Assembly (NCBI GenBank): GCA_024400635.1
Contig: JAKSMI010000005.1
Location: forward strand, 1-64,000
DNA length: 64,000 nucleotides
Source of the DNA: Bacteroidales bacterium
GTDB taxonomy: Bacteria; Bacteroidota; Bacteroidia; Bacteroidales; WCHB1-69
Direction of reading: 5' to 3'
The notes beneath the pieces are model-generated. The model saw only the letters and a list, made by a program, of their open reading frames with translations. It was not told the DNA's origin and searched no databases. Below are positions 1 through 19,418 of this stretch, one piece after another (positions within the stretch are counted from its first letter, which is position 1; every line of letters begins with the position of its first letter). Made by a program: the position numbers and the translations under genes.

Positions 1-84
1 CTTTTTCCTTGATTTGAGCGTCTTTTTCCTTGATTTGAGCGTCTTTTTCCTTGATTTGAGCGTCTTTTTCCTTGATACGTTCAT
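1..84 (-). repeat. 21-bp tandem repeat encoding KEKDAQI heptads
   Basis: The 21-bp unit CTTTTTCCTTGATTTGAGCGT is repeated three times exactly, followed by a fourth diverged unit ending at 84. Each unit encodes one heptad of the repressor's coiled coil. The near identity of units suggests recent expansion by slippage. The array begins at the window edge and may be longer. Confidence 0.85.
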
Positions 85-406
85 CTAAGATGTCTATCTG
101 GGCTCGCAATACGTCGGGACTGTCACTGTAGTATTGGCGGTTGTCGATGTGGGAATTGTCACCAATCACATTGTTATTACCATTGATGGCATTTTCGGAA
201 TTTTTCTTTCCTTTATTGACTTTTTCGTCAGAGAAAAAGTACTCCAATAATTTAGCATTTGCTTGTGTCGGAATTGATTTTTTATTCCGATAATTAAGTA
301 TAGTCTGCTCCCTAATGCCAGTTTTTGAGGCAATGTAATAAGCTGTCAAAGGGCATTTATTTAGCATATCTAAAATTTTTTCTACCTGACTATCAGTTGT
401 TTGCAT
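1..406 (-). CDS. HTH repressor with heptad coiled coil (3' end outside window)
   Basis: Reading leftward from ATG at 406, the product has an N-terminal helix-turn-helix-like segment of about 60 residues (around TAYYIASKTGIREQTILNY). An asparagine-rich linker (INGNNNVIGDNSHIDN) follows, then a coiled coil built of exact heptads KEKDAQI that runs off the window edge. This layout is common in phage repressors of Bacteroidota. Its position at the head of the lysogeny-control region, divergent from the early operon, supports a CI-like role. The C-terminal part cannot be seen, so a peptidase or oligomerisation domain is unknown. Confidence 0.7.
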   Translation of the reverse strand, partial: MQTTDSQVEKILDMLNKCPLTAYYIASKTGIREQTILNYRNKKSIPTQANAKLLEYFFSDEKVNKGKKNSENAINGNNNVIGDNSHIDNRQYYSDSPDVLRAQIDILDERIKEKDAQIKEKDAQIKEKDAQIKEK

Positions 407-1599: not shown

Positions 1600-1926
1600 A
1601 TGTACAAAAACTATCCATTATTTTACATAACAGGTCCCTACAGATTGTTGATGAGGAAAATGGGATATTCAAGGACATTGCTCTATTTCGACATCTGCAA
1701 GCAAAACGCCATTGCGGCATCATCCGTCATCTGCAAGAAGATTGACGATGAAAACCCGCTGAAGATTGCCCACAGAAACCATTACAGGCACTGCTTGAAA
1801 CAACGCCTTAATGCCGTTGAGAAGGCCGATTTCGTGGTGTTTACTGAGCATTACCTGCTATCGCCCGCCTGTTTGGTAGAATGGCTGTGGGCAAAGATAT
1901 TGAAGAAACGCATCATATACAAATAA
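1600..1926 (+). CDS. DUF4406 / nucleoside 2-deoxyribosyltransferase-like protein
   Basis: A 108-residue protein with YITGPY near the N terminus and a C-terminal pattern ADFVVF...LLSPACLVEWLWAKIL. This resembles the small-phage DUF4406/NDT fold, in which an S-x-G/A...E...A helix follows a strand ending in a hydrophobic run. Members may act on nucleosides or NAD-like substrates. The match is partial: the usual SRGA motif is SPAC here. Last protein gene before the structured RNA at 1933. Confidence 0.45.
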   Translation: MYKNYPLFYITGPYRLLMRKMGYSRTLLYFDICKQNAIAASSVICKKIDDENPLKIAHRNHYRHCLKQRLNAVEKADFVVFTEHYLLSPACLVEWLWAKILKKRIIYK

Positions 1927-1932
1927 CCTCAT

Positions 1933-2047
1933 AACGGTGGAGCACGCTGGGAATAGGTTCATGACCATGGGTTAAAGCCTTGCACTCCTGTCGTGGGATG
2001 AAGAATGGATAAAAAGACCGAATAAGTGATACCTCCACCGTTTTTTT
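1933..2047 (+). ncRNA. Structured intergenic RNA closed by a 10-bp stem and ended by a T-run
   Basis: AACGGTGGAG (1933-1942) pairs perfectly with CTCCACCGTT (2033-2042), which runs into seven T (2041-2047). CAC (1944-1946) can also pair with GTG near 2026. The 90-nt interior has further pairing, for example around GGTTCATGACC and CACTCC...GGGATG. A stem enclosing 90 nt and ending in U is larger than a simple terminator and looks like a small RNA or a structured element within the early transcript. No known RNA family is recognised. Confidence 0.55.
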
Positions 2048-2061
2048 AAGAAAAGTCAATT

Positions 2062-2280
2062 ATGAATGAATTTGGAAACTTCTATCAAAGCAAAATAAGC
2101 CGTCTCAGTAACCGGGCGGCGCGTAGAAATTATAAGCGGCTAATCGCCAAAAGGCTTGGAAAGTCGGTTTTTACCATCGACAACTGGATAAAGGGCGTAA
2201 CCGTTCCAAACAGGCTGGAACAAAAAGCCATCAATGTTATTTTTAGAGAAAAGATATATCAAGATGAAGAACTGGATTAA
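2062..2280 (+). CDS. Small basic HTH protein
   Basis: A 72-residue, strongly basic protein. KRLIAKRLGKSVFTIDNWIK (about residues 25-44) has the look of a helix-turn-helix in which the second helix starts after SVFT and contains DNWIKG. It probably binds DNA and may regulate the early or middle genes. It overlaps the following membrane-protein gene by 17 bases. Confidence 0.5.
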   Translation: MNEFGNFYQSKISRLSNRAARRNYKRLIAKRLGKSVFTIDNWIKGVTVPNRLEQKAINVIFREKIYQDEELD

Positions 2281-2983: not shown

Positions 2984-4270
2984 ATGGAAAAAAAGGAAAA
3001 CAGCGAAAACAGAGAAAACCGTGAAGAATACGGACAGGAAAAGGCCAAGATAACCAAGATACAGGAATGGCTGATGAGATACTACGAGTTCAGGAACAAC
3101 ACCGTCACACAGCAAATTGAATACAGAAGCGTTGAAAACGACGTGTTTTCCCAGTTCAACGAGAAAATGAAGACCGACATCGTTATCAAGCTGAAGGAAA
3201 TGCGCTTTTCCAAGCCGAAAGAGGACCTGGAAGACATCCTCAATTCCTCTATGATCAACGACTATAATCCCATCGTTGACTATTTCGGGAAAATCAGGTT
3301 CAAGGGCTTTGGCTATATAAGGCAGCTGTCGAAGTGTATCAAGTTGGACCAGCCCGACCAGATTATCCGTGGAAAGAAATACACTGACCTCTTTGAGGAA
3401 TATCTGCACAAATGGCTGTTGGCGTGCTATCTGTGCAGCACAGGAAAGACCGTGAATGACGTGATGCTTATCCTGATCGGAGCCCAAGGCAGGTTCAAAA
3501 CGTCGTTTTTGAACAATCTTTGTCCCAAGGAACTGATGGATTACAGGGTTTGCAGCCACATTAATCCGTCGCTTACCGACTACAACACCAGCAACTACCT
3601 GGCCGAAAAGTTCATGATCAATGTGGATGACCAGATGGAGACTATATTTGGCAAGGACTATAACTGTATGAAAGCGATAGTTTCGGCCCCCGACATCACC
3701 AACCGCAAACTGTACAAGGCCACCCACCAGCGACGGAGACGAATAGCCAACTTTTGCGGTTCGGTGAACGAAAGCCGATTTTTGCGTGACAGCAACAACC
3801 GGCGTTATCTTTGCTTTGCCATCACCGACATATCGAGAGACTATACAGAGGTGGATATTGACGGACTGTGGGCGGAAGTGAAGTATGAGGCCGAACAACT
3901 CAAGTCGAACTACATTTTCGGCCGTGAAGACTACATCACCATCGACTGTATGAATGCCAACTTCGAGGCACCCACCGAGGAAGCCGAAACGCTCCAGGCC
4001 GTTTTTATGCCAGTTGTAGATAAGCCGTTGGAAGACAGGGACGTGTATTATGTTTCATTCACCGAGATGATAGGGATATTAAAGCTTTATTCCTCCAACA
4101 ACTATCTGAAATCGTACAACCTGCAGACGGCCATGCGAAAATACGGCTACACGGTGAAGTCGTACAAGAAATCAAGATTCAACAACCAGCCGCGCAACCT
4201 GTATGCGGTGCAACTCATCAATCCAAAGCTGGAATGGCTGAGAAACAAGATGGATGAACTGTATATATGA
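2984..4270 (+). CDS. VirE/VapE-type (P4-like) replicative helicase
   Basis: A 428-residue protein. A charged N-terminal part of about 150 residues precedes an ATPase with Walker A GAQGRFKTS (near 165) and a Walker B-like strand FMINVDDQ. Further on are NESRFLRDSNNRRYLCF and the segment ITDISRDYTEVDIDGLWAEV. These are hallmarks of the virulence-associated E family, related to P4/D5 helicases that unwind DNA at phage origins. It is the only replication enzyme in the window and lies about 0.7 kb from the repeat-rich region. Its 3' end (4246-4265) is copied downstream of the methyltransferase gene. Confidence 0.85.
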   Translation: MEKKENSENRENREEYGQEKAKITKIQEWLMRYYEFRNNTVTQQIEYRSVENDVFSQFNEKMKTDIVIKLKEMRFSKPKEDLEDILNSSMINDYNPIVDYFGKIRFKGFGYIRQLSKCIKLDQPDQIIRGKKYTDLFEEYLHKWLLACYLCSTGKTVNDVMLILIGAQGRFKTSFLNNLCPKELMDYRVCSHINPSLTDYNTSNYLAEKFMINVDDQMETIFGKDYNCMKAIVSAPDITNRKLYKATHQRRRRIANFCGSVNESRFLRDSNNRRYLCFAITDISRDYTEVDIDGLWAEVKYEAEQLKSNYIFGREDYITIDCMNANFEAPTEEAETLQAVFMPVVDKPLEDRDVYYVSFTEMIGILKLYSSNNYLKSYNLQTAMRKYGYTVKSYKKSRFNNQPRNLYAVQLINPKLEWLRNKMDELYI

Positions 4271-4899: not shown

Positions 4900-4935
4900 G
4901 GAGGGTGGCCATTTGGCCATCCTCCTTTTTTTTTT
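4900..4935 (+). terminator. Strong Rho-independent terminator of the early operon
   Basis: GGAGGGTGGCCA (4900-4911) pairs with TGGCCATCCTCC (4914-4925), with one G-T pair and a TT loop, followed by ten T. It ends the transcript carrying the helicase and methyltransferase. Confidence 0.92.
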
Positions 4936-5185
4936 GAGGTAGTTGGCAAAAAGACAAAAAGTTCTAACTACCGCCAACTACCCAAAAAAAGACTTTTTGC
5001 AAATATCTTTTTTTCTAAAAACTACCTAACTACCTAACTACTATTTTACATTATATTTATTTTTAAATAGTTATGATTTTTATTTGGGTCGTTTGGTAGT
5101 TAGGGTAGTTAGCAGTGACATTTTTTTTGTTATTGAAAATTTAAAATTTTGGCTTGGTAGTTAGGTAGTTGGTAGTTTTCGCACA
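4936..5185. repeat. Iteron-like array, candidate phage origin
   Basis: GGTAGTT occurs at 4938, 5095, 5104, 5156, 5164 and 5171. Its complement AACTACC occurs at 4966, 4976, 5020 and 5028, with a variant (AACTACT) at 5036. Neighbouring copies are 7-10 bp apart and arranged as a cluster of AACTACC facing a cluster of GGTAGTT around an AT-rich centre (5043-5090). No gene is present. Such iterons next to a helicase gene are typical of plasmid and phage origins or partition sites; function is inferred. Confidence 0.6.
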
Positions 5186-12156: not shown

Positions 12157-12627
12157 ATGGCAAAGAAAAAAGACGCAATCGACAAACTGGTTGACGACCC
12201 CAAGAAAATACTCATCATCGTTATCATCATCGTGATACTGGTGGTGCTGGTGTGGGTGTTCTGGGGAAAGCTTAAAACGCTTTTTTCTGAAATCAGCAAC
12301 AAATACCAGCAAAATTCGGAACTCAACAACTACATATCCACAACCGGAGAGCAGGTCACATTGTCGGATTCCGACCTTAGACAGCTGGCCAACAAGCTCT
12401 ATACCGCATTTTACGGCGGACTTTTCGGATGGGGCACGGACGAAGATGCGGTTTATGACGTGTTCAACCGCATAAACAACGGTGCGGACCTACACAAGCT
12501 CATATCCGTATATGGAACCCGTGAAAACCTCACACTTGACCAGGCAATGGTTAACGAGCTCAACAACAGCGAATTAAAGAAAGTCAACACGATTTTAGCC
12601 AACAAAGGCATTAACTATCAATTCTAA
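12157..12627 (+). CDS. Membrane protein with an annexin-like C-terminal repeat
   Basis: A 156-residue protein. It has one N-terminal membrane span (residues about 17-35, valine/isoleucine-rich) and a helical C-terminal domain. FGWGTDEDAVYDVFNRI and the following LISVYGTRENLTLDQAM resemble the G-x-GTDE helix pattern of annexin repeats. The end (ILANKGINYQF) is also seen, from memory, in small proteins of Bacteroidota phages. The calcium-type loop is not complete, so binding of lipid or calcium is uncertain. Confidence 0.5.
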   Translation: MAKKKDAIDKLVDDPKKILIIVIIIVILVVLVWVFWGKLKTLFSEISNKYQQNSELNNYISTTGEQVTLSDSDLRQLANKLYTAFYGGLFGWGTDEDAVYDVFNRINNGADLHKLISVYGTRENLTLDQAMVNELNNSELKKVNTILANKGINYQF

Positions 12628-15454: not shown

Positions 15455-15568
15455 ATGAAACTGAAAAAGCCCATTGCAAAACAGGAAACAAAGACATTGA
15501 CAAAGAGTAAATTCATTGTCGATAAGAAAAGAAAGAAAGTAAAGAAAACAGCAAAGAGAAAAAAATGA
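15455..15568 (+). CDS. 37-residue lysine-rich peptide, candidate DNA-condensing protein
   Basis: MKLKKPIAKQETKTLTKSKF continues to IVDKKRKKVKKTAKRKK and a stop that overlaps the next ATG (ATGA). About half the residues are basic and there is no hydrophobic core, like protamine or adenovirus core peptides. It may neutralise DNA inside the virion. It is too short to be assigned to a family. Confidence 0.55.
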   Translation: MKLKKPIAKQETKTLTKSKFIVDKKRKKVKKTAKRKK

Positions 15569-16434
15569 AACGTAAAATCGTTGACACGAACATCGACATA
15601 ATGGAAGGCGGGAGAGCCAACCGTTATTGGTATGCGAAATCTCCAAAACCCAACAATTGGAGTGGGGGTGGAAATTACGAGGTTGATTTGCAGCTTATCC
15701 TGAAAAGTTATAAAATCAAGGGCTTTGAATTTGGAAACTGGCTGAACAATAACGACAGATACGACAGAGTGTTGGCTTGTAGTTCTGCCTTAGCTCATCT
15801 TTCCGGCATCATAGGAAGTAAGAATATCGGCATGGACTATCTTGTCGGTATCGCATTTGGCGCACGTGGAAAGTCTAAGGCGTTGGCCCATTACGAACCA
15901 AGTTACAACATGATCAACATTACCAAGGAAAAGGGAATTGGCACAATGGCCCACGAATACGGCCATGCTTTGGACTACAATATCGGGTGTTTTGTTGACC
16001 AGAATAAAAAGCACGCCTTTTTGTCAGGTGGTAGGATTACCATCAATAGAAAATGTTCATCAGCCCAAAACAGATTAAAAGACAATGTGGGAGAAATAAG
16101 GAGTCTGATGGAAAATCTGTTGATGAAGGCCTCCGACACCGACAGCTTTAAAAAAATGTCACCCGGATTATGCGGTTATTGGACACAGCGCACCGAAACC
16201 TTTGCGAGGGCTTTTGAACAATACGTATGCTACATTCTTAAATGTAACGGTATCCGTGATAAATTCCTAACCAACAGCTGGTCATTCTATACCACGATGG
16301 AACACTACTGGACAGAGAATGATTTTTTTAGTTTTTTGCCGGAAATGACATCGTTAATTCATGCAATATCCAAGAAAATGAACGTGAAGGCACACACGGT
16401 AACTGGAAAAGGAAAAATCGCGGCAAAGAAATAG
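15565..16434 (+). CDS. LPD1-type metallopeptidase-like protein
   Basis: A 289-residue protein. The middle holds IAFGARGKSKALAHYEPSYN, INITKEKGIGTMAHEYGHALD (HExxH near residue 132, read as AHEYGHALDY), and later RTETFARAFEQYV, a probable third-ligand helix. This matches the LPD1 domain of polyvalent phage and mobile-element proteins, thought to be a zinc peptidase delivered with DNA. Here it stands alone in the late region and may enter the host with the genome. It ends in a basic tail (GKGKIAAKK). Confidence 0.7.
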   Translation: MKRKIVDTNIDIMEGGRANRYWYAKSPKPNNWSGGGNYEVDLQLILKSYKIKGFEFGNWLNNNDRYDRVLACSSALAHLSGIIGSKNIGMDYLVGIAFGARGKSKALAHYEPSYNMINITKEKGIGTMAHEYGHALDYNIGCFVDQNKKHAFLSGGRITINRKCSSAQNRLKDNVGEIRSLMENLLMKASDTDSFKKMSPGLCGYWTQRTETFARAFEQYVCYILKCNGIRDKFLTNSWSFYTTMEHYWTENDFFSFLPEMTSLIHAISKKMNVKAHTVTGKGKIAAKK

Positions 16435-18066: not shown

Positions 18067-18096
18067 TTGGCCCGCCAAGGCGGGCCAATTCTTTTT
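18067..18096 (+). terminator. Late operon terminator
   Basis: TTGGCCCGCC (18067-18076) pairs perfectly with GGCGGGCCAA (18079-18088), then ATTC and five T. It separates the late operon from the convergent integrase gene. Confidence 0.85.
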
Positions 18097-19207
18097 AAAA
18101 GTCTATATTGGTTTCCTCCATTATACGTTTTGCGTTGGAACGGTGCGTGTATTTTTCTGTCATCTCCAGCGAGTGGTGGTCGGCCAATTCCTTTACGAAT
18201 TTTGCAGGAACGCCTTTTTCAAGCATTTCAGTAATGCCGCTATCCTTTAGCGAATAAAACTGATATTCCTTTGGAAATTTCAAATCGTCACGCATTATAG
18301 ACCAGGTTCTGCCTGAATCACGTGAACACAACATTTTTGATCCAGGAACATAACCGGAAGAAAACGCAAAAAGGCGTTGATTTTTGTTTGAAAACTGTTT
18401 GAAATACTCGATCAAGTCCTTAGGCAATGCCACCTCTCTTTGATGGTGGTTTTTGGCCACATCGGCACGGATGGTGATGATGCCGTTGTCAACATTTATA
18501 TCCGAAAGCCGCAACATCAACATTTCCTTTGGGCGTATCAGGCACTGGAAACATAAGCGCATCATTACGACATATCCGTGTAGATTATGCCGTTCAAAAT
18601 AATCCACAATTGCTTTGCGGTCATCGGATGAAATGGTCATGCGCCTTTTTTCATCAACCCTTTTGTGCTTTATGCCATCAAAAGGATTTTTTGCACACCA
18701 ACCACGCTCAGTGAAATAGGCAAAGAGTGTGAAGAAGAACGAGAGATAGTTGTTGTAAGATTTGTTGGATACACCTTTGTTTTCCATGCTTTCCAATAAT
18801 CGAGTGGCGTGGATTTTGTCGAAAGAAAAACAGTATTCATCACTCATACGAGTTGAACGACACCACTCCAGGAATATTTTACCGTATGACTTATAGCACC
18901 TGAAACTGTCAGGTCTTATTGATTTAGATTTGTCATCAAGGAATAAAGCAACCGCATCAGACAGTTTTTTTGAGTTGGCGTTGGATTCTTCGATAAACGG
19001 ATTCCAACCGTCGTAAAGTTTTACGTTTACTTCAAATGCCAGTCGCAACGCATACCTTTTTCTTTCCCTTGCATTGGCTATGTGGTTAAGCTTGATTTTT
19101 TTTCTTACCATCTTGTTTGTGAATGGATTAACCACGTAATAACCCACGTAAGAATCTTTCCCGGGGAAATATTGTGCGGGTCTAAACTTAACCAAAAAAT
19201 CAGACAT
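18095..19207 (-). CDS. int: Tyrosine recombinase integrase
   Basis: A 370-residue integrase. Residues about 1-80 form an N-terminal arm-type or SAM-like domain, about 85-190 the core-binding domain, and the rest the catalytic domain. CLIRPKEMLML carries the first catalytic Arg, QFYSLKDSGITEML takes the place of the usual HxxR box, ADHHSLEMTEKYTH supplies the late His and the nucleophile Tyr. The YSLKD form is seen in phage integrases of Bacteroidota. It points away from the tRNA-Ser gene whose 3' end is the probable attachment site, and a hairpin covers its ribosome-binding site. Confidence 0.88.
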   Translation of the reverse strand: MSDFLVKFRPAQYFPGKDSYVGYYVVNPFTNKMVRKKIKLNHIANARERKRYALRLAFEVNVKLYDGWNPFIEESNANSKKLSDAVALFLDDKSKSIRPDSFRCYKSYGKIFLEWCRSTRMSDEYCFSFDKIHATRLLESMENKGVSNKSYNNYLSFFFTLFAYFTERGWCAKNPFDGIKHKRVDEKRRMTISSDDRKAIVDYFERHNLHGYVVMMRLCFQCLIRPKEMLMLRLSDINVDNGIITIRADVAKNHHQREVALPKDLIEYFKQFSNKNQRLFAFSSGYVPGSKMLCSRDSGRTWSIMRDDLKFPKEYQFYSLKDSGITEMLEKGVPAKFVKELADHHSLEMTEKYTHRSNAKRIMEETNIDF

Positions 19208-19284: not shown

Positions 19285-19329
19285 AAAAAATGCCGTAAAA
19301 CACTAATTGTCAGAGTTTTACGGCATTTT
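19285..19329 (-). terminator. Terminator of tRNA-Ser at the phage junction
   Basis: ATGCCGTAAAAC (19290-19301) pairs with GTTTTACGGCAT (19315-19326). On the minus strand it follows the tRNA by a few bases and runs into six T. It should keep tRNA transcription from running into the integrase gene. Confidence 0.75.
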
Positions 19330-19418
19330 GGCGGAAAGTAAGGGATTCGAACCCCTGGACCCCCGGAGGGGTCAACAGATTTCGAGTCTGCCCCATTCGA
19401 CCACTCTGGCAACTTTCC
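19329..19418 (-). tRNA. tRNA-Ser (CGA)
   Basis: The minus strand reads GGAAAGTTGCCAGAGTGGTC at the 5' end, with a 7-bp acceptor (GGAAAGT/ACTTTCC), a class II long variable arm (GACCCCTCCGGGGGTC) and T-arm GTTCGAATCC. The anticodon loop between CAGA and TCTG carries CGA. A CCA end is encoded (19329-19331). A minus-strand -7 box lies at 19424-19431. The 3' part is the likely attachment core. Confidence 0.93.

Follow-up and report, generated by a model that had tools for sequence, protein, structure and literature searches.

A terminator-like stem enclosing 90 nt in the early operon of a Bacteroidales prophage

The element described here lies at positions 1933-2047 of a 64,000-nucleotide stretch of Bacteroidales DNA (the window), in an operon of early genes that belongs to an integrated phage-like element, the left end of which is cut by the start of the contig. 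The carrier is a prophage of roughly 19 kb in a bacterium of gut type. It was recognized as integrated and phage-like because its integrase gene (18095-19207, minus strand) adjoins a tRNA-Ser gene (19329-19418) and because phage-like matches occur at 12.2 and 15.6 kb. Those at 12157-12627 are to a tape-measure protein (weak, E=8e-4) and to a Phycodna minor capsid protein (just below the Pfam cut-off); at 15565-16434 there are an LPD1 domain and a 'minor head protein and DNA pilot' match. The contig starts (window 1-100) within a tandem repeat that encodes KEKDAQI-like units and forms the end of a minus-strand repressor-like ORF; this may be the reason for the break in the assembly. KEKDAQI-like repeats are also present in the counterpart of this ORF (2286-2708) at L032, one of two related loci considered below, the other being L047.

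A consensus scan located a Bacteroidota-type -7 box, TATTTTTG, on the plus strand at 459-466, which is probably the promoter of the early operon. The scan also matched TAnnTTTG at 739-746, within an ORF, and found no promoter-like box between 747 and the element. A broken reading frame is present at 780-1147. By eye, its pieces (MKLHLVVKAKWFDMIKSGEK... and MFHRGYTNVTHERECVRVRNG...) resemble one small gene of a kind that is intact at L047:1973-2377 (phrog_3136). The original prediction placed the element between a nucleotide-enzyme-like gene and an HTH gene, and the flanks are as described there. The upstream ORF (1600-1926, plus strand, 108 aa) is weakly like nucleoside 2-deoxyribosyltransferases (phrog_355, E=3.8e-4) and has no Pfam match, while the first ORF after the element (2062-2280, plus strand, 72 aa) is HTH-like by look, has no significant family match of its own, and has a 42% identical counterpart at L032:3708-3911. 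Farther down the operon is a gene for a VapE-type replication helicase/primase (2984-4270, plus strand; PF05272, E=2.7e-22; phrog_1313, E=2.7e-22). The same early region of the prophage includes a divergent repressor-like gene. Downstream of VapE and a DNA methyltransferase gene, an AT-rich non-coding gap holds the repeats CTAACTACC/GGTAGTTAG, clustered in both orientations (4934-5180). The cluster resembles an iteron-type origin of replication for the phage. Its identity to L032:8670-8916 is about 80%, a much higher degree of conservation than that of the long-loop element.

According to the ORF list and the frame translations, the element takes up most of a 135-nt non-coding gap on the plus strand (1927-2061), and the stop codon of the upstream ORF (1924-1926) ends 6 nt 5′ of the stem. 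The 5′ arm, AACGGTGGAG (1933-1942), and the 3′ arm, CTCCACCGTT (2033-2042), both read on the plus strand, form 10 bp with 100% complementarity and have 90 nt between them. The stem is followed by a T7 tract (2041-2047, plus strand), a terminator-like U-run whose first two Ts are the last two bases of the 3′ arm. The original prediction was right in the coordinates and description of this structure, a perfect 10-bp stem leading into a T-run, and also in calling the loop unusually long, since TransTermHP criteria call for loops of 3-13 nt and the median loop length in the Term-seq species of PMC12207403 is 4. There is no compact hairpin before the T-run, and a standard terminator scan does not report the site. 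The predicted pairing probability of the outer stem was about 0.9-1.0 for most pairs in contexts of up to 420 nt and fell to about 0.45 when the context was 461 nt long and began at 1600.

A 10-bp stem with this spacing is not unusual by itself. Perfect 10-bp stems with 15-130 nt between the arms numbered 41 per strand, a count inflated by the iteron cluster near 5 kb, against 12.6 in window shuffles, and a second such stem is found about 160 nt upstream, inside coding sequence (1766-1894). The combination of stem and T-run, on the other hand, is well above chance. When we required a stem of 8 bp or more with 4 or more G+C, arms separated by 20 nt or more (measured from the 8-bp core), and 6 or more Ts at the 3′ arm, 1933-2047 was the only site on the plus strand of the 64 kb. 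The shuffles contained 0.2 such combinations per strand (0.027 for 10 bp), and none of 150 had a 10-bp stem and T-run with at least 6 G+C; the criteria were chosen after the element had been seen, and these figures are a guide rather than a strict p-value. The location in a non-coding gap and the orientation along the operon add weight to a non-chance origin.

Inside the loop, the minimum free energy (MFE) fold and the pair probabilities predict an irregular hairpin arm of 4+5+5+5 bp (1943-1995, plus strand), with probabilities of about 0.7-0.87 for most pairs. The fold of 1943-1996 had a z of -1.43, with 9.6% of shuffles at least as stable. The remaining purine-rich stretch (1996-2032, plus strand) is predicted to be essentially unpaired: the MFE of 1997-2032 is 0 kcal/mol, and a 2-bp helix (2007-2008/2018-2019) reaches about 0.55. 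For the whole element, z was -1.57 against dinucleotide shuffles, 6% of which were as stable; with its flanks, z was -0.58; and the interior alone, at +0.22, folded no better than shuffled sequence. When the interior was shuffled, the outer stem still formed, with a mean probability of 0.77 versus 0.95 observed, and 24% of the shuffles reached the observed value. Formation of the outer stem is predicted as soon as transcription has reached position 2040 (0.98). Before the 3′ arm is made, the predicted folds are 1925-1959 and 1960-1995, which are mutually exclusive with the outer stem, and the 5′ arm is partly held in the first of these hairpins (0.62). Shuffling of the flanks and interior gave a mean sequestration of 0.61, with 45% of shuffles reaching 0.62, and there is therefore no sign of an evolved or designed switch.

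Relatives of the element were sought among known RNA families and in other genomes. No Rfam (Rfam 15) family matched it at the gathering threshold, and at permissive thresholds the best matches over it were far below threshold and chance-like. ARAGORN and Rfam, used for tRNA- or tmRNA-like RNA, found just three ordinary tRNAs in the window. Resemblances to ribozymes, retrons and tRNA noticed by eye were dropped, as no matching motif was present and ARAGORN was negative. DNA and covariance-model searches of 104 family genomes, and a covariance-model search of 384 order genomes, recovered the element itself and nothing else, and single-sequence covariance models (R1-R3) scored above chance only for self matches. 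The two best non-self DNA matches in the family genomes, L003 (E=1.4e-4 over 27 nt) and L004 (E=0.007 over 31 nt), were rejected as lying in contexts that are unrelated, A-rich or coding, and the weak covariance-model matches L091-L093 were rejected after inspection as chance. Phages and plasmids searched at the DNA level held no homologue, the exact interior pattern had no match in viral contigs, and no locus keeping the outer stem was found in the genomes searched. Loci picked up with peptide patterns (L062 and L064-L090) do not encode the operon. The comparisons suggested in the original prediction, with covariance models and with Rfam, thus yielded no relative.

A close relative of the VapE protein is encoded at two loci. 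L032, from a goat-rumen Bacteroidales MAG, encodes a VapE with 74-75% amino acid identity and also has counterparts of the small HTH gene, a membrane-protein gene and a 135-aa gene. L047, an IMG/VR contig, encodes a VapE that is about 58% identical over most of the protein and has little else in common with the window in the operon region. At each locus, this part of the operon contains a single sizeable gap, rich in GC, 5′ of a small ORF, and both gaps fold more stably than shuffles (L032:3297-3468, 172 nt, z -2.25; L047:3779-4110, 332 nt, z -2.91). In the L032 gap, AGAGGGGCA has two competing outer pairings, with TGCCCCT or with CCCCTCTG. The L047 gap has two adjacent stems within an outer one (3940-4054), and it may be partly coding because one plus-strand frame is open throughout. 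Neither gap could be convincingly aligned with that of the window, and neither has the outer stem or the T-run; covariance models built from each of the three gaps did not find the others, and Rfam at permissive thresholds gave nothing credible over the L032 and L047 gaps. A motif common to the three gaps, AAGTGNTA, was dropped as post hoc. It is conceivable, though improbable, that every phage of this VapE lineage has one non-coding RNA in the early operon, 5′ of the small HTH gene (in the window, 1927-2061), which is GC-rich, structured and fast-changing. These RNAs would be functionally equivalent, although no longer recognizable by sequence, and would serve in early regulation or anti-termination. 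If the gaps were equivalent in this way, they would point to a layer of RNA control of the early operon in a group of phages that has been little studied. With three loci, the GC-rich gaps are too few to count as a pattern.

We favor, at slightly better than even odds, the reading of 1933-2047 as an intrinsic terminator or attenuator whose loop is partly folded and unusually long. We regard it as a real, mildly unusual, terminator-like element, one that would work like a terminator rather than being a typical member of the class. This reading fits best because the U-run is strand-specific, the element closely follows a stop codon, and the interior shows no sign of being constrained. The perfect, GC-containing stem runs into the T7 tract on the operon strand only; a site 6 nt past the upstream stop codon is a usual place for a terminator; and an interior that resembles shuffled sequence is what is expected if the outer stem alone matters. 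Transcription, beginning near 470, would run through 1600-1926 and on into the 5′ arm. Ninety nucleotides later the 3′ arm, with its GC-rich CTCCACCG, would emerge just before the T7 tract, the stem would close and stack on the inner hairpin (1943-1995), and some of the RNA polymerases would be released at the T-run while the others would read through into the downstream genes. Such a stop would be partial or regulated, because the downstream genes have no recognizable promoter of their own. Since no Bacteroidota-type box lies nearer upstream than 739, read-through would have to be substantial or regulated. The element lies where the first early genes give way to the HTH/VapE replication genes.

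Several observations weigh against termination at this site. While a stable stem lies directly before the U-run, as in intrinsic terminators, the loop is far outside their usual range, and its slow closure would make for a weak terminator. In the predictions, the 1925-1959 hairpin partly engages the 5′ arm until the 3′ arm is made, and the downstream replication genes would need to be expressed past the stop. Besides, the stem and the T-run are both absent from the related operons, and the strong compact terminator of the region, as located by the standard terminator scan, is elsewhere (4900-4935).

An RNA processing site is an unlikely alternative. In this case the stem, stacked on the inner hairpin, would be cut by RNase III or would protect the ends of both halves of the early message, splitting it between the upstream genes and HTH-VapE without termination. 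The stem and the inner arm are predicted to build a long, mostly stacked helix, the position is intercistronic, and the downstream genes, with no promoter-like box close upstream, need read-through. However, processing leaves the T7 tract without a use, no conserved stem is present at L032 or L047, and the predicted helix contains interruptions and would be rather short for an RNase III site. There is a slimmer chance that the element is a stable small RNA of about 115 nt acting in trans, with its 3′ end made by the terminator and its 5′ end by processing. A single stem pairs its two ends, the inner arm has a moderate fold, and the gap is non-coding; but there is no promoter-like box on the 5′ side, the interior fold is not above chance, and the searches of Rfam, phages, plasmids and family and order genomes gave no relative. 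Doubtful to a greater degree is a regulatory switch or attenuator in which the early hairpin (1925-1959) would compete with the terminator stem under the control of a ligand, a protein or a ribosome stopping at 1924-1926. Mutually exclusive folds are indeed predicted, and the first bases of the alternative hairpin fall within the stop codon, yet sequestration of the 5′ arm is the same as in shuffles and nothing is conserved. The stable small RNA or regulatory switch that the original prediction put forward was not borne out by these results. Least probable of all is a chance structure or relic, a stem and T-run without a role left by a decayed gene or an insertion, for while the element is a singleton, the broken frame at 780-1147 suggests decay in the same operon and other perfect 10-bp stems occur in coding sequence, the stem and T-run combination was absent from all 150 shuffles and sits exactly in the gap on the right strand.

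If termination takes place as predicted, 1933-2047 would clearly exemplify, in a Bacteroidales prophage, intrinsic termination across a 90-nt loop. Sites of this kind would escape standard predictors, which limit the loop to about 13 nt. As the evidence stands, it is a modest point of annotation.

The element shares features with three known systems. Like intrinsic (Rho-independent) terminators, it has a GC-containing stem that leads directly into seven Ts on the transcribed strand and lies a short way past a stop codon; it differs in having 90 nt rather than 3-13 between the arms, and termination at this site is a prediction. In lambdoid phages, early terminators such as lambda tR1 are partial or regulated. 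The element has a similar place, after the first early genes and ahead of those for replication, in an operon accompanied by a divergent repressor-like gene, although its host belongs to a different phylum and the likeness is one of position. In the early mRNA of phage T7, RNase III sites lie in large intercistronic hairpins. The element likewise is a large intercistronic hairpin in an early phage message, but it has a T-run, and the likeness is one of position and shape.
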